From a virus, in IMG/VR virus record IMGVR_UViG_3300033571_012914, positions 1 to 32,683 of that record: a DNA stretch of 32,683 bases; one strand, 5' to 3'. Below, piece by piece: positions 6,150 through 32,683 of the stretch (positions are counted from its first letter, which is position 1; each line of letters begins with the position of its first letter). Made by a program: the position numbers and the translations under genes. Under the pieces are notes generated by a model, which ran no database searches, was not told the DNA's origin, and saw only the letters and a list, made by a program, of their open reading frames with translations.

Positions 6150-6800
6150 ATGGGTATCGAAACTCTGGCTCTCGCTGCCATAGCTACAACCGTTATTGGC
6201 ACAGGCGTAAGCGCCTATGGCGCCTACCAGCAAGGGCAGTCACAAGCGGAAGCCGCGCAGATGCAAGGCATAGCTGCCGCGCAGCAGGCGCAGTATCAAG
6301 CGGCTATCGCGGACATTAACCGGCAAACCGCCGAGCGCAACGCAGGCTTGGCGGAAACCAATGCCCAATACACAGAGGTTGCCGGAGCGCGATTGCAGGA
6401 AGACAGAGCGCGGCGCATACGCTCGCTGATTGGCGCGCAGCGCGCCGGGCTGGCGGCAAATGGCCTTATGATTGACGAAGGAACAGGCGTCGATTTGCAG
6501 GAAGACGTGGCGGATTTGGGGGGCCTAGCTATTGCTGAAATCAGAAGCAATGCCGGGCGGCAAGCGTCGGGCTATCGTATCCAGGGCGCAAACGCCATGG
6601 ACGAAGCCCTGGCAGCAACCCTACGCGGAGAGGCATACCGCGTTTCCGCCAGCAACGCGCTCCTGGCAGGTAATTTCGCAGCGGACGCATACTCAACAGC
6701 AGGCACCATTGCGGCGGGTAGCTCGCTTCTCGGCGGGGCGACGAGCACATTTGATCGCTTTGGCCGTATGCAATCTGCTGGTATTCCAGCAATCATATAG
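6150..6800 (+). CDS. Internal virion protein, T7 gp14-like
   Basis: A 216-aa protein with AGAAGGAGG in front and the start codon immediately after the preceding TAA. The N-terminus (LALAAIATTVIGTGVSAYGAYQQGQ) is one hydrophobic Ala/Gly-rich segment. Long Ala/Gln-rich helices follow (residues about 28-110), containing RIRSLIGAQRAGLAANGLMIDEGTGVDL, a pattern typical of gp14-like core proteins. The end is Gly/Ala/Ser rich. In T7, gp14 is ejected first and forms the outer-membrane part of the DNA channel, so the hydrophobic start fits. Order (gp13-like, then this, then large internal proteins) matches T7. Confidence 0.8.
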   Translation: MGIETLALAAIATTVIGTGVSAYGAYQQGQSQAEAAQMQGIAAAQQAQYQAAIADINRQTAERNAGLAETNAQYTEVAGARLQEDRARRIRSLIGAQRAGLAANGLMIDEGTGVDLQEDVADLGGLAIAEIRSNAGRQASGYRIQGANAMDEALAATLRGEAYRVSASNALLAGNFAADAYSTAGTIAAGSSLLGGATSTFDRFGRMQSAGIPAII

Positions 6801-6807
6801 GTGGAAC

Positions 6808-9800
6808 ATGGCCCGTATCCCTACCGTTACGACAGTCGATCAACAACCAGCCGGAGCAATACCGGGGCAGTTTGCGCAGCGTAGCGAAGCATCGCCTTCC
6901 GATTTCGGGCAAGGCGCGGCAAGGCTTATGGGCCAAGCGTCAAGCGCGGTGCAACAAGCTTTGGCAGGCTTCGGCGAGCAGATGCAGCGGGCGGGCGGCG
7001 CGCTGGCGGAACAAGCTATCCGTGACCAAGAAATAAACAATGAGACTTTTGCGACCGAAGCCGCTACCTCGATGCAAAACAGCATCAATCAGGAATGGGC
7101 GTCGTTTAGTGAATTGCAAGGCAGGGCAGCTACCGAAGCCTACCCGCAATACCAGCAACGCATAAAAGAGATTACGGAAAGCGCTTTGAACAGCGCGCCA
7201 AATGATCGTGTGCGTCGTATGCTTGCGGGGCGTGTCGGCCAAGCCGGTAACGCAGCCCTAATGACAGGCGCGCAATGGAACACACGCCAAACGCGCACGG
7301 CCAGCGTCAACGCTTCCGAAGCAGCAGCCAATCAAGCCATCGCCGACGGTATGCTTAATCGTTTCAACCCGGCAGGGCTTACGGCGGCGCTCGCCGTCGG
7401 GCAATCAGAGCTTGTGAAGATTGGCGAGATTGGTGGGTGGGACGCGGTAACTCTCGCGCAAAAGCAATCGGAGTATCGCGGTAGGTTCTATGGCGCCGTC
7501 ATTGCCACTATCGCCGAAGACGATCCTCTTGCAGCGAAACGCATGTTCGATAGCGTGCGCGAGAGCTTGGACGCTGGCGCGCAAGTCCGCATTGAAAACT
7601 CGCTATCAGCGCCCGTAAGGGTTCGCACGGCGGCGAATATCGTAGCCACGGTTACTGCGCCGACCGAAACAGAAAACCCGCGCTCTGTGGTGGACGTGGT
7701 GTTTCGTGCAGAAAACCCGGCTGGCGATGCGCGCCGCAACCCTAGAAGCTCGGCAAGCGGCCCCGGCCAGATAACGGACGAAACTTGGTCCGCGTATTCT
7801 GCGCGGCTTGGCCTTCGACCGGAACAGCGCAACGAGCGCGCGGCGCATGTGGCTATCTTTGAAGCATACCAATCCGATGCGCGGATAGCGATAGGGCGCG
7901 TGTTGACGCCGGGCGAGCAATACGCGGCTTGGGTTCTAGGCATCGGCGGCGCCAAAGCTTTCATTGAGGCTTCGCCTGATACGGACGCACGGGCGCTATA
8001 CGGCAGGGTCGCAGGAGAAAACCGTGCGCGCCGGGCGTTCTCCACCAATGGCGAGCTTATGCGCCCCGGCATGTCCACCGGCCAAGTATTGCAGGCGCTT
8101 TCAGCGCGAGTATCGCCGAGCGCGCCACGCGGAGACACGCGGGCCTTGCTTGGCCGCGCTATGGAAATGGCGGGCGGCGACCCACAGCTTCAAGCCGCTG
8201 TCATGTCGCAATTCAATATGTGGCAGAATGTTCAAAATGCCACGCAGGCTCAGGATCGCGCGGCGCTTGACAGGCAAATTTCTGATCTCGGCAAGGCGCT
8301 ACAACAAGGCGCGCAAGTATCTATTCCAGAAGCCGAGATACGGCGCCTAATGCCGCCCGAGCAAGCGGACAGAACGCTTGACGCGCTCTATACATCGCAG
8401 ATCGCAGGCCAAGTGTTTTCTTCTGTGCAGCTTGCTACGCCGCAAGAGCTACAAGCTCTGCGTCAGGATTTGATTGAAGGGCGCGGGCCGGTTACGGATA
8501 TGCTGCGCCTGCGTCGAGGCACGAGGATGGACGAAGCGGGTGTGCTGGAAGCCGACCGAGCAGGCGACGTAGCCTCGCGCGGAGAATTGCGACAAGTCCT
8601 CGATCAACGCATTGAAGAACGCAACCGGCAGCTTTTGGCCGACCCCGCGCAATACGCGCTGGCAGACCCCGGCGTGCGTGAGCAGGCAGCAGCAGCGGCA
8701 AACGACAATCAAGCGCTTGGCGGCTACGTTACGGCAACGCTCGCGGCGCAGGCGAGGCTAGGCGTGCCGGAGCCGGAACGTCGCATCCTGTCCAAAGCAC
8801 AATCGCAAGCCATCGCCTCCGACATTATGCGTAGTGATCCGGCGCAGGGCGATCCGCAAAACCCTGACGGCCCGGCTATTCGTCTTCGCAGTTTGGCAGA
8901 AGCTTACGGCGAAGCGTGGCCGCGAGTGTTTCAGGATTTGGCGCGCGATGGGAATTTACCCGCCGAATACCAAATACTCGCCAACATAGATAGCGCTGTG
9001 GGGCAGGCAGATTTCTCGCGCATGTTGGCGGCGCAAAAGGCGGCGGGCGGTGCCGGGCCTTTCCGCGAGGGCGTGCGCCGTGCGTTTCCTGCCGAAGAAA
9101 GCAGGCTGTCCAAAGAGATCGGAACCTACATTCAACCTTTTGTTGCTACCGCTTTGGCGAGCGGCCAGACAGGCGGCGACAGGCTGGCGGCGATGGTCGG
9201 CGGCGCTATTGAAAATCTCGCCGCATACTATGTGTTTCGTGGCGCCGACGCAACAACCGCGATGCAGCGCGCCGCCGACAGGATTGTGAATGACAAGTAT
9301 GATATTCTTGGCACCATGCGCGTGCCCAAGAAAACGAGCGACGGTAGGCCGCTTGGCTTGCCTCCCGTGCAGCGCGCGCAATCGTTTGTTATGCGAAACC
9401 TTACCCCGGAGCAGATTGTCGATTTAGAGGGAGCGCCAGGGGTTCCCGCCGACGAGAACAGAAACATCGTTTGGCGTTCTGCGCAGCGCGGTTTTTGGGT
9501 TCCTAACCAGCGCGACACCGGCCTTGTGCTCATGCGTGAGCTAGAAAACGGAGGTCGGTTGCCTGTTCATGTCACGGAAAACACGCCTAACGCGGTGCGG
9601 GACCAAAACGGTAGGTGGCGCATTGAGCTTTTCTTTGACAGCCTTCCAAGGCCTACGTTGACCGGCGCAAGCACATTGCAGCGAGACAACCCGGCCCGCG
9701 CAGTTACGCCAATCGAAGGCTACGACGTGCCCGCTCCGGCAGAGAACCGCCGTGGTCCTGGGTTCACGCCACAGCAAGCGCCCGCGCCCGCCGCGCCTGT

Positions 9801-26394: not shown

Positions 26395-27513
26395 TCAAAG
26401 CCCCAAGAAAGGCACGTCAACCGTGCTCAAGCCAACAAAGAAATAGCTTTCGCTTCCAGCGCGCGAAGCCATAAGCCCGGCTTCACTACCTACCGTGGCA
26501 TTGGCGAAGATGATGTTGTCCACATAGGACGGCGCCCAATCGTCAACACCCTTCTCAAAATCGGCAACGGTAATGGTGCCTGTGTGCGTGCCATCACGGC
26601 CAAAGGTATCAACGCCAGAGCCGCCCGTAAGGCGCTGCCCGCTTCCACCATACAGCGCGTCATTGCCGCCGCCGCCATTGATACTTGTCAAGCCGCTGAT
26701 ACCGCCGTTCACCACGTCGTCAAAATTGGTGGCGATCAAACCCTCGATAGCGGAGAAAGCAACGCCGCTGCTTGTGAGCACAATCTGAGGGGTTTGTGAT
26801 GATTGCACGATGATACCTTCGCCCCACCCTGAAAGATCGAGAGTGTCGGCGCCGGAGCCGCCGTTGACGGTATCGAAGCCTGTGCTCATAACGATGCGAT
26901 CATTGCCGTCTTCACCAAAGATCGCGTCATTGCCTGCACCACCATTCAAGGTATCGCCGCCAGCGCCGCCATAGAGTGCGTCATTGCCGCCGTCACCATT
27001 CACCGCGTCGTTGCCGTTCTGGCCTTGCAGATTATCAGCGCCGTCGCCGCCGTGCAGCGCGTCGTTGCCGTCGCCGCCCGTGATAATGTCATTCCCGGCC
27101 ATGCCATACATTAGATCGGCGCCAAAATTGCCAATCATGCGGTTGTCCAAGCCGTTCCCTGTGCCGGTAAAGCCGGAAAAGGAATTGCCATTGGTCAAAC
27201 CTTCGACGTTATCGTGCAGCGTCCAGGCGTTTGTGAACGTAATGCGAACCATATCAATTCCCTCGCCAGCGTTTTCATACACGCTGTCAAGAAAATTATC
27301 CACGTTGTAGTAATCATCGCCGGTTCCGCCATACATCACGTCGTAACCGCTGTTCCCGTTCAACACGTCGTTGCCGGAACCACCATACAAATAGTCGTCA
27401 CCCAGGCCACCTTGCAGCGTGTCGTGACCGCCTTCGCCATACAGGAAATCAGCGCCCCCGGTTCCTTGCAACCAGTTATTGCCGCCGTTTCCAAAAAGAA
27501 TACTACCGCTCAT
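26395..27513 (-). CDS. RTX-type calcium-binding repeat protein
   Basis: 372 aa. At least 15 glycine-rich nonapeptides of the form GGxGxDxLx run from residue about 8 to 75 (GGLGDDYLYGGSGNDVLNG) and from about 135 to 235 (GGDGNDALHGGDGADNLQG and similar), with a short third block near 280-305. Such repeats bind Ca2+ and fold into parallel beta-rolls, typically outside the cell after type I secretion. The end (TITVADFEKGVDDW, then a hydrophobic FFVGLSTVDVPFLGL) resembles an RTX C-terminal region. There is no N-terminal signal peptide, and no export genes are nearby. GGAGA precedes ATG. It is out of place between a resolvase and a helicase gene; see findings. Confidence 0.9.
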   Translation of the reverse strand: MSGSILFGNGGNNWLQGTGGADFLYGEGGHDTLQGGLGDDYLYGGSGNDVLNGNSGYDVMYGGTGDDYYNVDNFLDSVYENAGEGIDMVRITFTNAWTLHDNVEGLTNGNSFSGFTGTGNGLDNRMIGNFGADLMYGMAGNDIITGGDGNDALHGGDGADNLQGQNGNDAVNGDGGNDALYGGAGGDTLNGGAGNDAIFGEDGNDRIVMSTGFDTVNGGSGADTLDLSGWGEGIIVQSSQTPQIVLTSSGVAFSAIEGLIATNFDDVVNGGISGLTSINGGGGNDALYGGSGQRLTGGSGVDTFGRDGTHTGTITVADFEKGVDDWAPSYVDNIIFANATVGSEAGLMASRAGSESYFFVGLSTVDVPFLGL

Positions 27514-28094: not shown

Positions 28095-28949
28095 CTATTC
28101 GCGGATTGCGGATAGCAGTTTCGCCGCTTCGGCAAGCTTGGCCGAGCGCAGATCAATCTCGGAGAGCATGACGCGGGCTTGTGCCAGCGAAAGCTTCACC
28201 TTGACCGTCTTGCCCGTGAGGTAATTGTGAACCGTGGATCGAGACACGCCCAGGCGCTTCGCCAGATCGGCGTCCTCGTAGGATGCGGCTTGCCCGAACA
28301 GGATCATGGCGCCGCGTGGATCGGCGCTTGTGGGCGGGCCTTCGACGGCGCTATGGGAAGGCGCTACCGCACTCAGGGCATCCTCCGTCGTCGGCGCTTG
28401 GGCATCCGCAATGTCGGCATACCCGCCCTCGTCTAAAGGGGCTGGGGATTCCTCCGACAAGCCGAGCATGTCGGCAAGCCCGTCGTCTTCCGGCTCTGGC
28501 GCGGCAGGCGTTGAAGCCGTGCTACCAGAACCAAGCGCGGCAATGTGTGATGCGACAATGCCGACCTTGGAAAGCCATTTGCCCCTGTGCATAGGCAGGA
28601 CAGGCTTCGCCATGATGATAGCTCGCGCCAGCGCGTAGCTCGTAGCTTGGTCTTCGATAAGCTCGTCAAATTGGGCGCTGATACCTTGCGTTGCAAAATC
28701 GGCGCGCACATCGGCAAGAAAATCGGGAGCCTTTGTGTCAAGCTCGACGCCCATCATATCCGCTAGATCGGAAGCCTCTTTTATTTTTTCTTCAATTTTG
28801 GCGCCGTTCTCTCCGGCGATGTAATCCTGCGCCGCTGAAACCAGAAGCGCCTTGGCATCTTCTCCGTCCGCCATGCCGATTTCCGCTTCGCGGACAATCG
28901 TTCTGATCGCGCTCTCGTCAAGCGCGATAATTCCGTAGGTCAAGCCCAT
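28095..28949 (-). CDS. Helix-turn-helix protein, putative regulator or replication initiator
   Basis: 284 aa. The N-terminal half (1-125) is helical and acidic (AKIEEKIKEASDLADMMGVEL), with a short basic stretch MHRGKWLSKVGIV. Residues about 135-215 are a disordered Pro/Ala/Ser/Asp linker that contains EDDGLADMLGLSEE. The C-terminus has a clear helix-turn-helix, DLAKRLGVSRSTVHNYLTGK (about 228-247), with a final coiled helix. The start uses GAAAGGGAGAATATC, a relative of the binding-site cassette used by the small genes. It is the first gene of the replication block, so a switch or origin-binding role is plausible; unproven. Confidence 0.75.
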   Translation of the reverse strand: MGLTYGIIALDESAIRTIVREAEIGMADGEDAKALLVSAAQDYIAGENGAKIEEKIKEASDLADMMGVELDTKAPDFLADVRADFATQGISAQFDELIEDQATSYALARAIIMAKPVLPMHRGKWLSKVGIVASHIAALGSGSTASTPAAPEPEDDGLADMLGLSEESPAPLDEGGYADIADAQAPTTEDALSAVAPSHSAVEGPPTSADPRGAMILFGQAASYEDADLAKRLGVSRSTVHNYLTGKTVKVKLSLAQARVMLSEIDLRSAKLAEAAKLLSAIRE

Positions 28950-28975
28950 GATATTCTCCCTTTCATGTGAACAAG

Positions 28976-29164
28976 TTAGGCATACTGCCTGCGCCGCTTG
29001 CGCTTGTCAAGCGTCACTTTTTGGGCCTTCGCCTCGGCCTCGATCTCGGCGTCGGTTTTGCAGGCTGGCTCGTCTCTGTCATTCATATCCCATCGCAACC
29101 GGCAACGAGAGCAATGCTTCTCGTCGCTGGATTGGCGGGCTTGGCAGCGTGCTACAGGAGCCAT
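28976..29164 (-). CDS. Small four-cysteine (zinc-ribbon-like) protein
   Basis: The second of two in-frame ATGs is chosen because GGAGG lies five bases before it and inside the longer version. The product is 62 aa. Cys7, Cys18, Cys21 and Cys35 with the pattern CSRCRLRWDMNDRDEPAC suggest a small metal-binding knuckle. The C-terminal part is helical and ends in a basic KRKRRRQYA, which could contact nucleic acid. Its first 13 bases overlap the end of the 31-codon ORF upstream, a sign of coupled translation. Family not named; function unknown. Confidence 0.65.
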   Translation of the reverse strand: MAPVARCQARQSSDEKHCSRCRLRWDMNDRDEPACKTDAEIEAEAKAQKVTLDKRKRRRQYA

Positions 29165-29247
29165 GTCTTCCTCCCCCATGTGACATACCAGCCCATGCGG
29201 TAAGGCGCCCTGCGCACGCGCGGAAACCAGCGGAAGCTACGCGGCAT
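29152..29247 (-). CDS. Very small ORF, 31 aa, basic and aromatic
   Basis: The - strand reads MPRSFRWFPRVRRAPYRM, then GWYVTWGRKTWLL, then stop. GGAGG six bases before ATG is among the best ribosome binding sites in the block. It overlaps the end of the upstream gene by 11 bases and the start of the downstream Cys-rich gene by 13, filling what would otherwise be the only gap between them. The peptide is strongly basic and rich in Trp, Tyr and Phe, as in nucleic-acid-binding or membrane-active peptides. It could equally be a leader that couples translation of its neighbours. Confidence 0.45.
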   Translation of the reverse strand: MPRSFRWFPRVRRAPYRMGWYVTWGRKTWLL

Positions 29248-29506
29248 GGCGGGCCTCCGGGTTCCGCACAATGGCGTCCTGCATCGCGGCACGGCTTGAC
29301 AGGAACGGCCCCTTGCACTCGCTGCCAGAATTGCGCACGATTACCGGCGCCCAATACCAGCCGATTTTCTTGCGGCGAGGATGGCCGGGCGGCTCGTAGC
29401 CGAATACCTCGACAATGCGGCGCCGATCAAAATACTGCACGATGATCGGCTGGCCGTTTGGCATTTCGGCTTCGCCAGCGTAGGCGTCTCTTTTACTTTT
29501 GGCCAT
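29237..29506 (-). CDS. Hypothetical small protein (89 aa)
   Basis: Starts MAKSKRDAYAGEAEM behind GAAAGGG; the preceding gene's TAA lies between site and start. The middle holds beta-strand-like IVQYFDRRRIVEVFGY and KIGWYWAPVIVRNSGSE, followed by a helix (SSRAAMQDAIVRN). Single small alpha/beta domain, basic, soluble. Part of the early small-gene run. No recognised family. Confidence 0.65.
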   Translation of the reverse strand: MAKSKRDAYAGEAEMPNGQPIIVQYFDRRRIVEVFGYEPPGHPRRKKIGWYWAPVIVRNSGSECKGPFLSSRAAMQDAIVRNPEARHAA

Positions 29507-29508
29507 GA

Positions 29509-29733
29509 TTAAACCCTTTCATGTTTGAGGTTTTCAAGGTTGCGAAGCGCGGCCACAATGGCACGCGCCGCTGCCGCGCTTTGCGCGACACATTCCCACA
29601 CAATCCTGTCTCCGATCCTGGCCGTCACCCAGGCGCCGCGCGTCTCGAAGACTTGCTTAGGTGGCTTCTCGGCGGGCAATGGCGGGCGATTAAGTCCGCG
29701 CACCAGCCGCGCTAGTTTCTCTGGCGTGACCAT
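29509..29733 (-). CDS. Hypothetical small protein (74 aa)
   Basis: Begins MVTPEKLARLVRGLNRPPLPAEKPPKQVF, then a beta-hairpin-like WVTARIGDRIVWECVA and a helix (SAAAARAIVAALRNLENL). GGGGAGC precedes ATG, and the stop of the 148-aa gene overlaps that region. It ends two bases before the next start, so the two are coupled. No known function. Confidence 0.65.
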   Translation of the reverse strand: MVTPEKLARLVRGLNRPPLPAEKPPKQVFETRGAWVTARIGDRIVWECVAQSAAAARAIVAALRNLENLKHERV

Positions 29734-29736
29734 GAT

Positions 29737-30183
29737 CTAGCTCCCCTGCGGCAATACGGTTGTCAGTGTTTCGATAAGCTCCTGCGTAGCGGCGCGCTGT
29801 GCTCGTTTGCTCTCAATAAGCTTCTCAAGCGCGGCAGCAATCGCCCGCTCGTCTTCCTTTGATAGCTGGTAGTTATCAAATATTTTTGCCAGCGTAATCG
29901 GCCAGGAGCCGGTCGCTATCTGCGCGTTGTGGTGTAGCTCGTGGTAATCTGCGATTACGCTCATAAAAGCGCCGGATTGCAGCAAAACCAAAGAAAGCTC
30001 GTCTCTTTCTCCTTTTGCGAGATTTTCGCCATTTTGGATTTTGTGCTTAAAATCCATAAGACGATAAGCAAGCTCTCGGCGCAGCCGGTGAAAGCCTTGG
30101 CTGTCTTTGGCGGCTACTGTGTTTCGTATTGTTTGCTCAATTCCTACCGGCGCCTGCATAGCGCTTTCCAAGATTGTTGTCAT
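29737..30183 (-). CDS. Hypothetical helical protein (148 aa)
   Basis: Almost entirely helical: FHRLRRELAYRLMDFKHKIQNGENLAKGERDELSLVLL-type stretches, then a His-containing ADYHELHHNAQIA, then a charged coiled-coil end (KEDERAIAAALEKLIESKRAQRAATQELIETLTTVL). GGAGGTCAGG precedes ATG, and the start overlaps the previous stop by ATGA. The HELHH run is reminiscent of metal ligands, but too little surrounds it to claim a protease motif. Unknown function. Confidence 0.68.
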   Translation of the reverse strand: MTTILESAMQAPVGIEQTIRNTVAAKDSQGFHRLRRELAYRLMDFKHKIQNGENLAKGERDELSLVLLQSGAFMSVIADYHELHHNAQIATGSWPITLAKIFDNYQLSKEDERAIAAALEKLIESKRAQRAATQELIETLTTVLPQGS

Positions 30184-30383
30184 TTCCTGACCTCCATCGT
30201 TGTTGGTTTAACGATCATATAGCGCGACGTGGGCAGTAAATCAGCGCGCGCTAGATACGCCATAGGCATAGCGCCGCTAAGATAATACTCGCCTTTCTTG
30301 GGCGCGCGGTAATCCACGCGCTCCCATTTGTATTTGCGGCCTCGCACGCCATGGCCTTCAAAATAGACATGCTCGGGCAGCAT
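30180..30383 (-). CDS. Hypothetical small protein (67 aa)
   Basis: A compact, basic protein: FEGHGVRGRKYKWERVDYRAPKKGEYYLSGA, then LARADLLPTSRYMIVKPT. The 'R.PKKGEYYLSG' stretch recurs in small phage proteins of unknown function, as far as I recall. It starts within the stop codon of the 75-aa gene (TAATG) and ends within the start of the 148-aa gene (ATGA), so three genes are tightly coupled. Confidence 0.68.
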   Translation of the reverse strand: MLPEHVYFEGHGVRGRKYKWERVDYRAPKKGEYYLSGAMPMAYLARADLLPTSRYMIVKPTTMEVRK

Positions 30384-30610
30384 TAGCGACCCTCCGAAAA
30401 AAGGCTTTTCGTAAGGTAGCGCTCGGGCTTGCCTTCCAGCAATGTGATCGGCTGGCCGGTATCAAAGAACGCTTCGCGCACGTCCCTGATACAAAGCTGG
30501 CGCGTCTGGAAGGGGCCGGTCGGCACAAGGCTTGTGTTATCTTCCGCCGTATCCCAAAACCAAAAGGTTCCTTGTTCCGACGGCCAAATGTGAACAGTAA
30601 TCACGCCCAT
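30383..30610 (-). CDS. Hypothetical small protein (75 aa)
   Basis: Starts MGVITVHIWPSEQGTFWFWDTAEDNTSLV, a likely beta-rich N-terminus with several Trp, followed by a helix (RQLCIRDVREAFFDTG). Uses the shared binding-site cassette ACAGGAAAGGACAAGATC directly before ATGGGC. No recognised family. Confidence 0.68.
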   Translation of the reverse strand: MGVITVHIWPSEQGTFWFWDTAEDNTSLVPTGPFQTRQLCIRDVREAFFDTGQPITLLEGKPERYLTKSLFSEGR

Positions 30611-30628
30611 GATCTTGTCCTTTCCTGT

Positions 30629-30892
30629 TTAAGCTTTTTCGACTGAGTAATGCGGGAAAGAACCAGTGACGCGGTATCGCTCTCCGTTGTTTGGCGGGAA
30701 CACGTCGCGCACCCACCGCTTGAAGGCCCGAACCTCCCCACGTTCAACGCGATAGAACCGCGCCACGCTGTCAAAGTCCACGCGGCAGCAGCGCCCGTTT
30801 GGCCAGCCACCCCTCGCGTCAAAAAAGCCGGGGGCGCCCATGCGTAGCGGTCCACAAGTTAGCCTGAAAGCAAAGTCGGGGTTTTTGCCCAT
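30629..30892 (-). CDS. Hypothetical small protein (87 aa)
   Basis: Chosen over an overlapping frame because its ATG follows the shared cassette ACAGGAAAGGACAAGATC. MGKNPDFAFRLTCGPLRMG opens a Gly/Arg/Phe-rich protein with VDFDSVARFYRVERGEVRAFKRWVRDVF and a final RYRVTGSFPHYSVEKA. Basic, no membrane segment. A 13-base stretch near its start is shared with the neighbouring 70-aa gene in another reading frame (see findings). Confidence 0.65.
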   Translation of the reverse strand: MGKNPDFAFRLTCGPLRMGAPGFFDARGGWPNGRCCRVDFDSVARFYRVERGEVRAFKRWVRDVFPPNNGERYRVTGSFPHYSVEKA

Positions 30893-30924
30893 GATCTTGT
30901 CCTTTCCTGTCTAAGAATTACGTC

Positions 30925-30953
30925 CAGATAAGCCTTGTTGTTGGCCCTGTCAA
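30925..30953 (-). promoter_or_regulatory. Candidate sigma70-type promoter in the early block
   Basis: On the - strand, a perfect TTGACA (30953-30948) is followed 17 bases later by TATCTG (30930-30925), a fair -10 match. It lies in the longest gap (68 bases) of an otherwise tightly packed - strand block, upstream of the 87-aa gene. The TTGACA overlaps a GGCCCT/AGGGCC hairpin (30943-30958) just after the upstream stop codon, so the same bases could instead end or process the upstream transcript. Confidence 0.4.
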
Positions 30954-30960
30954 GGGCCTT

Positions 30961-31173
30961 TTAGCGATAATATCGCAAGCCGTCATCGGGCGCGACAAAC
31001 CAGCGCTTAGGTATCCGCGTGCCGGGATGCACGATCTCCGCGACCGAGAAAGAACGGTAATGCGTGGCGCCGTAGCCTCTGCGTAGCTCGGCTGGTGTAG
31101 GGTTCCGCCAATAGGTAGCGCGCTCCACCCCCTCCCGTATCGGCAAGCGGTCCACAAGCTTACTTTTGCCCAT
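30961..31173 (-). CDS. Hypothetical small protein (70 aa)
   Basis: The ATG after the cassette ACAGGAAAGGACAGGATC gives MGKSKLVDRLPIREGVERATYW. The frame is open upstream, but that would overlap the neighbouring gene completely at its end. The centre LRRGYGATHYRSFSVAEIVHPGTRIPKRWFVAPDDG looks like a small beta-fold with a basic surface. Unknown function. Confidence 0.65.
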   Translation of the reverse strand: MGKSKLVDRLPIREGVERATYWRNPTPAELRRGYGATHYRSFSVAEIVHPGTRIPKRWFVAPDDGLRYYR

Positions 31174-31190
31174 GATCCTGTCCTTTCCTG

Positions 31191-31430
31191 TTAGGTTGCC
31201 AGCGTTGCATCTATGGCAATGCGGGAAACAAGTGTCAGATTGGCGTCTAGCACGCCTATGGGCTTGTCCCGCCCCTCCCATTGCACCGTGACCAGCGCGC
31301 GATTGCCAAAGGGTTCCACCCCTTGCACAATGCCGCGCGCCCGCGCTTCCCATGACGTGTGCAGGCAGAGAGATTTAAGCCACACGGCGGAATAGGCGAC
31401 TTTATCGCCGGGCTTGAAAACTTTGGCCAT
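31191..31430 (-). CDS. Small SH3/KOW-like protein (79 aa)
   Basis: MAKVFKPGDKVAYSAVWLKSLCLHTSWEARARGIVQGVEPFGNRALVTVQWEGR reads as a small beta-barrel: 'F.pGD.V.Y', a central 'A..RG.V' and 'LV.V.W.G'. This is the spacing of SH3-like/KOW-like barrels, which often bind nucleic acid or protein. Preceded by TAGGAAAGGACAAGATC. Its TAA is followed immediately by the cassette of the next gene. Fold inferred; function unknown. Confidence 0.68.
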   Translation of the reverse strand: MAKVFKPGDKVAYSAVWLKSLCLHTSWEARARGIVQGVEPFGNRALVTVQWEGRDKPIGVLDANLTLVSRIAIDATLAT

Positions 31431-31444
31431 GATCTTGTCCTTTC

Positions 31445-32041
31445 CTATTCAATCCGGCCACGTTCATCGAAGCGATATTCATTCGCGGCCATGCTTTCGG
31501 CGATGTTTTCGTCTGATGTTTGGAAATCTTGCGTGTCAATCGCAAGGCGGTAAATCCATTGCGAGAAATCGCGCATGGCTTCGCTGATAGCCCTTTCAAG
31601 CTCTGGCGTAGTGTCGCCGTATCTTGTCCGCCCGTCGGATACATCAACCGATATTGAGGTAGTGCGGCGCGAGGTTACGCTTGCAGTAAGCGCCCAAAAA
31701 GCGCGCCGTTGCGCTTCCTGTAAATCTTTCGCTATTTGTTGCAGCGTTTCATCTTTCGGATATTGCGCGCGAATATCCGACAAGGCGCCCTTTCGGTATC
31801 CATAGCTCCCGGCAAAGCTCGCGCCGTCGCTTTGGCAATGCCCCGCGCACCAATATACCGCCATATCTTTCCCTCTTTCTTCCAAGGAAATACCTAGCAT
31901 TTCTGCCGCTCCCTTGACCTCGCCCATGATCCAGTCCGCTTCACCCTCATAGCCCTCAAGCCACCAAGCGCGGGCGCGTTCTTTGGCGCTTTCGGATAGC
32001 TCCGAATAGGCAAAGACTGTCTTTTCGATTGTCTCTGGCAT
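31445..32041 (-). CDS. Conserved phage protein of unknown function (198 aa)
   Basis: Starts MPETIEKTVFAYSELSESAKERARAWWLEGYEGEADWIMGEVKGAAEMLGI. The pattern 'yseLse.AKerAr.WW', followed by a late GHCQSDGASFAGSYGYRKGAL and a helix (DETLQQIAKDLQEAQRRAFWAL), is a widespread phage/prophage family. I recall it being annotated as hypothetical, or loosely as part of a toxin-antitoxin stability system, with no mechanism I can cite. The C-terminal part is helical and acidic (ELERAISEAMRDFSQWIYRLAIDTQDF). Uses ACAGGAAAGGAAAGTATC before ATG. The largest gene of the early block here. Confidence 0.72.
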   Translation of the reverse strand: MPETIEKTVFAYSELSESAKERARAWWLEGYEGEADWIMGEVKGAAEMLGISLEERGKDMAVYWCAGHCQSDGASFAGSYGYRKGALSDIRAQYPKDETLQQIAKDLQEAQRRAFWALTASVTSRRTTSISVDVSDGRTRYGDTTPELERAISEAMRDFSQWIYRLAIDTQDFQTSDENIAESMAANEYRFDERGRIE

Positions 32042-32058
32042 GATACTTTCCTTTCCTG

Positions 32059-32229
32059 TTAGCGCAAAATATCGGAGATATTGCGCACGGTTTCATTTCC
32101 GCAAGCGTCACTTTCAGCCGCTTCACGCGAGGGAAAGCGGCGCGCATTTTCAAGGCTTCCCGTATAGCTTTTGGCGCTACCCGGTTGCGCGACGTAAAGC
32201 CGCCCTTTCATTATTACCCATGTGCCCAT
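32059..32229 (-). CDS. Hypothetical 56-aa protein
   Basis: Below common length cutoffs but well supported: the shared cassette TAGGAAAGGACAAGATC precedes ATGGGC, and the TAA stop abuts the next cassette exactly as in neighbouring genes. The - strand product starts MGTWVIMKGRLYVAQPGSAK and continues SYTGSLENARRFPSREAAES, then DACGNETVRNISDILR. It reads as a small beta-hairpin plus helix. Without it there would be a 200-base gap. Unknown function. Confidence 0.7.
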   Translation of the reverse strand: MGTWVIMKGRLYVAQPGSAKSYTGSLENARRFPSREAAESDACGNETVRNISDILR

Positions 32230-32243
32230 GATCTTGTCCTTTC

Positions 32244-32564
32244 CTATTTGAAGCCAAGCAAGCGCGACACGCGCGCATAGCTCGCGGCGGTTATGTTTTT
32301 CGGTGGGTGAATAGCGCGAGTTTCCACCGCGCCCGTTGCGTAGTCTTCGCGCCCGTCAATTTCCTGCCACCATCGCCCGCTATTTTCTTGCGGAGACGCA
32401 ATGCGCAGAGCTTCGCGCAAGCCCATGTTTATATTTTTAGGCGCGGCATTTTTTCGCGCGGGGCTTCCGTCACGCAATAGAAAACCGGCTTTTGCGTAGT
32501 CGCCCTTCCTCGCGCTTTCTTGCGTCACAATCTCAAAAGTAACGCGGAAACCGTTTTTGCCCAT
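32244..32564 (-). CDS. Hypothetical protein (106 aa)
   Basis: The ATG following ACAGAAAGGGAATGTATC gives MGKNGFRVTFEIVTQESARKGDYAKAGFLLRDG. A longer frame exists upstream but would bypass this site. The rest (NAAPKNINMGLREALRIASPQENSGRWWQEIDGREDYATGAVETRAIHPP) is a mixed alpha/beta pattern with a helix 'LREALRIA' and Trp pair, then ASYARVSRLLGFK. I note similarity in layout to small phage proteins with 'ES.r.GD....GF', function unknown. Confidence 0.68.
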   Translation of the reverse strand: MGKNGFRVTFEIVTQESARKGDYAKAGFLLRDGSPARKNAAPKNINMGLREALRIASPQENSGRWWQEIDGREDYATGAVETRAIHPPKNITAASYARVSRLLGFK

Positions 32565-32581
32565 GATACATTCCCTTTCTG

Positions 32582-32683
32582 TTAGCGCCCCGGCATGGGG
32601 CGCGTTGTGTCGTTGTGTCGTTGCGCGCGGCGCGCATGGCGCCAGCACGCGACGGGGCGCGCATGGCGTGGCAGGATCAGCAC
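32582..32683 (-). CDS. Possible 3' end of a further small gene (partial)
   Basis: On the - strand an open frame runs from the window edge to a TAA placed directly before the ACAGAAAGGG site, the same stop-then-site arrangement as three neighbouring genes. The visible product is about 33 residues, very Arg-rich (HARPVACWRHARRAQRH). The stretch has odd repeats (TTGTGTCG twice at 32605-32620; GGCGCGCATGGCG at 32629 and 32656), so it may be non-coding leader instead. Confidence 0.3.
   Translation of the reverse strand: MLILPRHARPVACWRHARRAQRHNDTTRPMPGR

Follow-up and report, generated by a model that had tools for sequence, protein, structure and literature searches.

A repeated translation-start leader, resembling start-associated sequences, before unrelated small genes of a viral genome

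Short repeats at the starts of unrelated genes have been described in several groups of phages, and their function has been open since 2011. In Cluster K mycobacteriophages, start-associated sequences (SAS) stand where unrelated non-structural genes begin; Pope et al. (2011; PMC3203893) argued that they are more than Shine-Dalgarno sites, left their function open and suggested that they may be targets of homologous recombination. In Microbacterium Cluster EF phages ten genes have a 13-bp repeat at their ribosome-binding site (PMC7302621), and in Citrobacter phage Mordin several unrelated small hypothetical genes are preceded by the same leader, a 26-bp start repeat (PMC4611695). Passages of PMC4503421 that cite Arbiol 2010 and Comeau 2014 describe T4-type mobile cassettes, repeated intergenic sequences that contain a promoter and a stem-loop, as proposed means of single-gene shuffling, and passages of PMC3029335 that cite Susskind & Botstein 1978 and Clark 2001 describe lambdoid boundary sequences, short conserved sequences at module joins, as proposed sites of homologous recombination. 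The locus described here extends start-associated repeats to a phage that belongs neither to the actinophages nor to the enterophages, the groups from which they were described. It separates the bases that other phages leave free from the bases that they keep, and it offers a clean natural example in which one gene has been replaced precisely between two cassettes, by which the exchange idea becomes testable.

The sequence analysed (the window) is an IMG/VR virus record of 32,683 bases. A leftward run of small genes at its right end lies upstream of replication genes for a Prim-Pol/AAA primase-helicase, DNA polymerase A, an Enc34-type ssDNA-binding protein, a DUF2800 protein and an SNF2 helicase. 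The window ends (position 32683) inside this run. A close relative, L007, extends beyond the window end with about 4 kb more of small genes and then divergently oriented genes that by eye look like terminase and portal (the terminase-like protein has no Pfam match), and the window record is therefore incomplete. We infer that the small-gene run is early, as it is on the same strand as the replication genes and upstream of them, and divergent from the terminase and portal of L007. Rfam and tRNA scans gave no match, and within the array the counts of predicted promoters and terminators were close to the shuffled background. A 372-aa protein rich in GGxGxD-type repeats (26395-27513, minus strand), RTX-like by eye, is encoded in the replication module between the RuvC-like and SNF2 genes, an odd location for such a protein.

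The leaders and genes of the array, numbered g1 to g13 leftward from the window end, include the following.

32565..32580, minus strand: loose leader of g1, AGAAAGGGAATGTATC, 6 mismatches to the consensus; the L007 ortholog has AGGAAAGGAAGGTATC
32244..32564, minus strand: g1, 106 aa, no family match; 97% identical in L007
32230..32245, minus strand: exact cassette before g2, its first bases overlapping the TAG stop of g1; identical in L007 despite a different following gene
32059..32229, minus strand: g2, 56 aa; in L007 the same two cassettes enclose an unrelated gene of 68 aa
32042..32057, minus strand: cassette before g3, AGGAAAGGAAAGTATC, 3 mismatches
31445..32041, minus strand: g3, 198 aa, phrog_5162 (unknown function), with relatives in many unrelated phages
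31431..31446, minus strand: exact cassette before g4, overlapping the TAG stop of g3
31191..31430, minus strand: g4, 79 aa, no family match
31174..31189, minus strand: cassette before g5, 1 mismatch (CAGG for CAAG)
30961..31173, minus strand: g5, 70 aa, phrog_38643
30893..30908, minus strand: exact cassette before g6, preceded by a 68-nt gap
30629..30892, minus strand: g6, 87 aa, no match in 50,697 phage records
30611..30626, minus strand: exact cassette before g7; absent in relative L008
30383..30610, minus strand: g7, 75 aa, no match in 50,697 phage records
29507..29522, minus strand: loose leader of g11, ATGAAAGGGTTTAATC, 6 mismatches; identical in L008, and GAAAGGGGGCGATC in the ortholog of the distant relative L013
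28950..28965, minus strand: loose leader of g13, TGAAAGGGAGAATATC, 5 mismatches; identical in L008

The consensus AGGAAAGGACAAGATC was matched six times in the window at three mismatches or fewer, always on the minus strand and always ending exactly at the ATG of an ORF, with no match on the other strand at the same threshold; 100 dinucleotide shuffles gave a mean of 0.05 matches and a maximum of one. The copies before g2, g4, g6 and g7 have no mismatch, that of g5 has one and that of g3 has three. The leaders of g13 (five mismatches), g1 and g11 (six each) are only loosely similar to the cassette, and those of g8, g9, g10 and g12 have 9-13 mismatches. The sequence-only reading, which had counted seven nearly identical leaders, was correct for five copies at one mismatch or fewer plus the one at three, and overcounted by including g1, which belongs with the looser copies. 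A repeat search grouped the starts of nine genes into a single 29-nt family (28944, 29501, 30605, 30887, 31168, 31425, 32036, 32224 and 32559).

The shared block begins at the stop codon of the preceding gene and reaches the second codon of the next one. Its layout is a stop codon, a Shine-Dalgarno stretch (AGGAAAGGA), the 7-nt spacer CAAGATC and ATGG. Columns are common to the five best copies from about -16 to +6 (ATGGGC or ATGGCC) and agreement drops beyond; about 24 nt are identical between copies, for example ACAGGAAAGGACAAGATCATGGGC in g6 and g7. At five of the six junctions the upstream stop codon overlaps the cassette or lies within 2-3 nt of it, and the gaps between genes are 14, 17, 14, 17, 68 and 18 nt, the 68-nt gap preceding g6. 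Within that gap (30909-30960) is a hairpin-like GCCCTTGACAGGGCC with a TTGACA hexamer, of which L007 has a near-identical copy at 6150-6167, after its first small gene. The likeness exceeds the needs of a Shine-Dalgarno site, as had been proposed from the letters: for the nine columns outside a fixed Shine-Dalgarno core, agreement is seen in 86 of 90 pairwise comparisons, against at most 56 in 200,000 draws from the base composition of the leaders. Paralogy of the small genes was considered as a source of the repeat and ruled out, since an all-against-all blastp found none; the coding parts are unrelated, as the same reading had held. The small proteins of the array are mostly orphans. The g5 family is one exception: this small phage gene, whose function is unknown, has travelled widely and has the conserved ending WFVA..DGLRYY. 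Its relatives in Rhodobacter, Achromobacter, Acidovorax and giant Caulobacter phages have leaders that differ from the cassette, and therefore the leader belongs to the place and not to the gene.

In its broad features the cassette is SAS-like. Both are short asymmetric repeats at the ribosome-binding position of unrelated small non-structural genes, in one orientation, conserved beyond Shine-Dalgarno pairing and not common in other phages (PMC3203893), and the relatives L007 and L013 have the cassette or related leaders, sometimes with other genes. The features specific to Cluster K, namely sequence, inverted repeats and wide gaps, are absent: the consensus there is GGGATAGGAGCCC and here AGGAAAGGACAAGATC, there are 11-19 copies there and 5-9 here, and gaps there are mostly above 50 bp as opposed to 14-18 nt here (with one of 68). 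About half of Cluster K SAS have upstream 17-bp inverted repeats (ESAS), which the window cassette lacks and for which there is no room because the upstream stop abuts the cassette at five of six junctions. The Cluster EF consensus GGGAAAGGACCCC shares GGAAAGGAC with the cassette, a likeness that lies in the Shine-Dalgarno part, whereas the phages are unrelated and the EF motif is linked to an upstream ESAS-like element (PMC7302621). The Mordin repeat is alike in being an identical leader, but its sequence and host differ and its noncoding gaps are longer. The cassette has neither the promoter nor the stem-loop given for the T4-type cassettes in those passages, although it too is a repeated intergenic sequence; and whereas the lambdoid boundary sequences, as described there, are common to different phages at corresponding joins, the cassette is common to joins within one lineage.

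An annotation-free scan for sets of at least three near-equal 16-mers that precede ATG and are followed by dissimilar sequence covered 61 sources (0.61 Mb, a non-random set); it replaced a first metric, 16-mers before any codon, that was confounded by other repeats of the window. The scan recovered Pixie (SAS), Mordin (AACTGGAGAATCTAAA before ATG, six exact copies), the window and, at two mismatches, L007; it also gave minor sets in Mordin and, in RcBigEagle, one candidate GC-rich set with three or four members.

Each part of the cassette would fit an ordinary strong translation start. The leader (GAAAGGA) would form an 8-nt pairing at normal spacing with a 16S tail of the CCUUUC type; such tails are of the alphaproteobacterial type. 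No stable structure is predicted for the leader. Equal and strong translation, one of the functions suggested by the sequence-only reading, is supported by this pairing, by the spacing and unstructured leader, and by the presence of a near-identical pattern at ORF starts of unrelated viruses and bacteria. The exact 20-mer that includes ATGG stands at ORF starts in six bacterial contigs, where the ORFs look like ordinary cellular proteins (e.g. elongation-factor-Ts-like and aminotransferase-like, named by eye and not from database matches); therefore the sequence works as a plain start. A longer ribosome contact, in which the GATC beside ATG would also pair with GAUC of the 16S tail, is highly improbable and was rejected. 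RNAduplex does give -13.0 kcal/mol for AGGAAAGG plus GATC with GGAUCACCUCCUUUCU, compared with -10.3 for g3, but random 7-nt spacers match this in 27% of cases, and on structural reasoning the four bases adjacent to an ATG in the P site are unlikely to reach the tail. GATC was also rejected as a rare or avoided methylation site, with 149 occurrences seen in the window and 104 expected.

Conservation beyond the Shine-Dalgarno core could be read as the mark of one RNA or protein regulator that binds the cassette and controls the small genes jointly, as the sequence-only reading had offered and as has been proposed equivalently for SAS (PMC3203893). This is very unlikely for the window: no antisense copy at three mismatches or fewer was found on its other strand or in the searched relatives' records, the leader has no Rfam match or stable fold, the 20-mer occurs at unrelated bacterial ORFs, and the copies drift at g1 and g3.

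Other phages indicate which bases a start of this kind leaves free. Besides L007, 38 viral contigs have one copy each of the relaxed pattern CAGGAAAGGANNNNATCATGG, and in 34 of them an ORF of 40 aa or more starts at it; none of the 38 could be aligned to the window. Elsewhere the four middle bases (NNNN) are free, the commonest four-letter filling having been seen once among those listed of the 27 distinct cases, while CAAG fills them in four of the five window leaders. With base frequencies taken from those 27 cases, the probability that at least four of five leaders share one 4-mer is about 5e-6, a rough estimate given the small sample. Near-identical starts in unrelated phages and bacterial genes are what would be expected if every gene had evolved the same optimal start independently, without copying. 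Such convergence is improbable and disfavoured here, since the middle bases that are free elsewhere are common in the window and other genes of the same phage do without the cassette: copies are confined to the non-structural part, no structural gene start bears one, and other leaders precede the structural genes and the upstream small genes of L007. The unusual feature is that even the free bases agree among leaders of one genome; this points to junction copying, which explains the shared CAAG better than constraint does. The cassette is accordingly read, with fair confidence, as an SAS-like translation start leader whose copies are probably alike through copying of the junction and not through a dedicated regulator that reads each base. 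In a tightly packed operon it would give every small gene a strong, uniform initiation leader, translation being raised by pairing of GAAAGGA in an unfolded leader with a CCUUUC-type tail, and the junction itself may have been copied during insertion or exchange of small genes, which would leave the copies more alike than initiation needs. Homologous recombination between copies may be one route of gene replacement.

Relatives were sought with RuvC-like, SNF2, g1, g3, g13 and terminase queries. The only close relatives found were L007, L008, L014 and terminase-side fragments; L062-L064 end before the array, and a genome scan with the SNF2 profile added none. Across the shared part, L007 has about 92-95% DNA identity to the window, and in it g1 and g3 flank a different gene in place of g2. 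Identity runs through the end of g1, the cassette and ATGGGCA, gives way to unrelated sequence and resumes at TAACAGGAAAGGA before g3; one ORF has been replaced from codon 3 to stop, exactly between two cassettes. An Erythrobacter phage encodes a weak relative of the replacing 68-aa gene. A search of related phages for the cassette beside different genes had been suggested, and here the cassette does stand beside one, being identical in both genomes and independent of the gene that follows. This comparison gives the one case in which a gene was replaced and both seams fall within the repeat, and on the L007 side it comes from one metagenome contig; misassembly at the 24-nt repeat, which would require false joins on both sides, is unlikely. 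With this one clean case, the cassette is plausibly an active exchange site.

The sequence-only reading had offered a gene-exchange rack as one option, with the copies as short homology blocks at which small genes are swapped. In a stronger form of this idea, recombination at the 20-24 identical bases would swap single genes and be the main reason that the copies are kept alike. The clean swap in L007 bears this out in part, as do the identity of about 24 nt between copies, the scattering of the g3 and g5 families over unrelated phages, and the Enc34-type ssDNA-binding and DUF2800 proteins that the phage encodes. L008, one of few genomes to compare, has two changes that fall at or off the edge of the repeat and lack cassettes on both sides. 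Its g7 is kept from the ATG onward with a different leader and upstream gene, so that the seam is at the ATG edge. At L008 780-920, compared with window 29680-30260, g9 (148 aa) is absent and the end of g8 is joined directly to the start of g10, with codons altered at the seam and no cassette involved. The loss of g9 lies at a cassette-free boundary, and therefore the cassette is not needed for turnover. Moreover, the exact 19-mer was found in no IMG/VR contig except L007, which argues against an exchange currency common to phages, and no single-strand annealing recombinase was identified. Exchange as the main cause of the likeness is on the whole unlikely, if still worth tentative consideration, and junction copying at plain translation starts is retained as the better reading.

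Variation among close relatives outside the AGG/GGA core, which had been put forward as the observation that would tell against the cassette, is mixed. The g1 leader differs from that of L007 at 3 of 16 bases and the g3 leader at 1 of 16, a divergence about equal to or above that of the flanks, and the g7 leader is gone from L008; the g11 and g13 leaders are unchanged there. Selection and recent copying are hard to separate because there is a single orthologous pair in which both copies are exact.

In the distant relative L013, whose SNF2 helicase is 60-61% identical to that of the window, the corresponding region has five starts with related leaders (contig positions 46210, 82, 304, 378 and 583). 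Those at 46210 and 82 share TGGAGACGATCATGGGCAA; that at 304 is in frame within another ORF and may not begin a gene. The Shine-Dalgarno half of the L013 leader differs from that of the window and the ATCATGGG half is the same. The recurrence of GATCATGGGC despite the different Shine-Dalgarno half hints that selection may act separately on the half next to the ATG. The pattern suggests that each lineage homogenises its own version of the leader, though five sites in L013 are few. A more speculative extension, which we regard as doubtful, is that the stop-to-start junction of about 24 bp is a self-propagating docking site: copies would flank each incoming small gene, so that recombination could swap single ORFs frame-neutrally, while lineages homogenise their own versions (AGGAAAGGACAAGATC in the window and TGGAGACGATC in L013, around a shared core ATCATGGGC).

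Other repeats were observed in the relatives. The L013 ORF that starts at 46210 contains a tandem 18-bp repeat, GCGCGGGTGTTCGGCAAT, at 46367-46565. L007 has a second gene-junction repeat of about 95 nt before two small genes (8330-8426 and 8769-8867), with a weaker copy (68%) at 7824-7876. Each of the two full copies folds as a long stem-loop (z about -4.8), in which the middle stem differs in sequence between copies and the pairing is kept.
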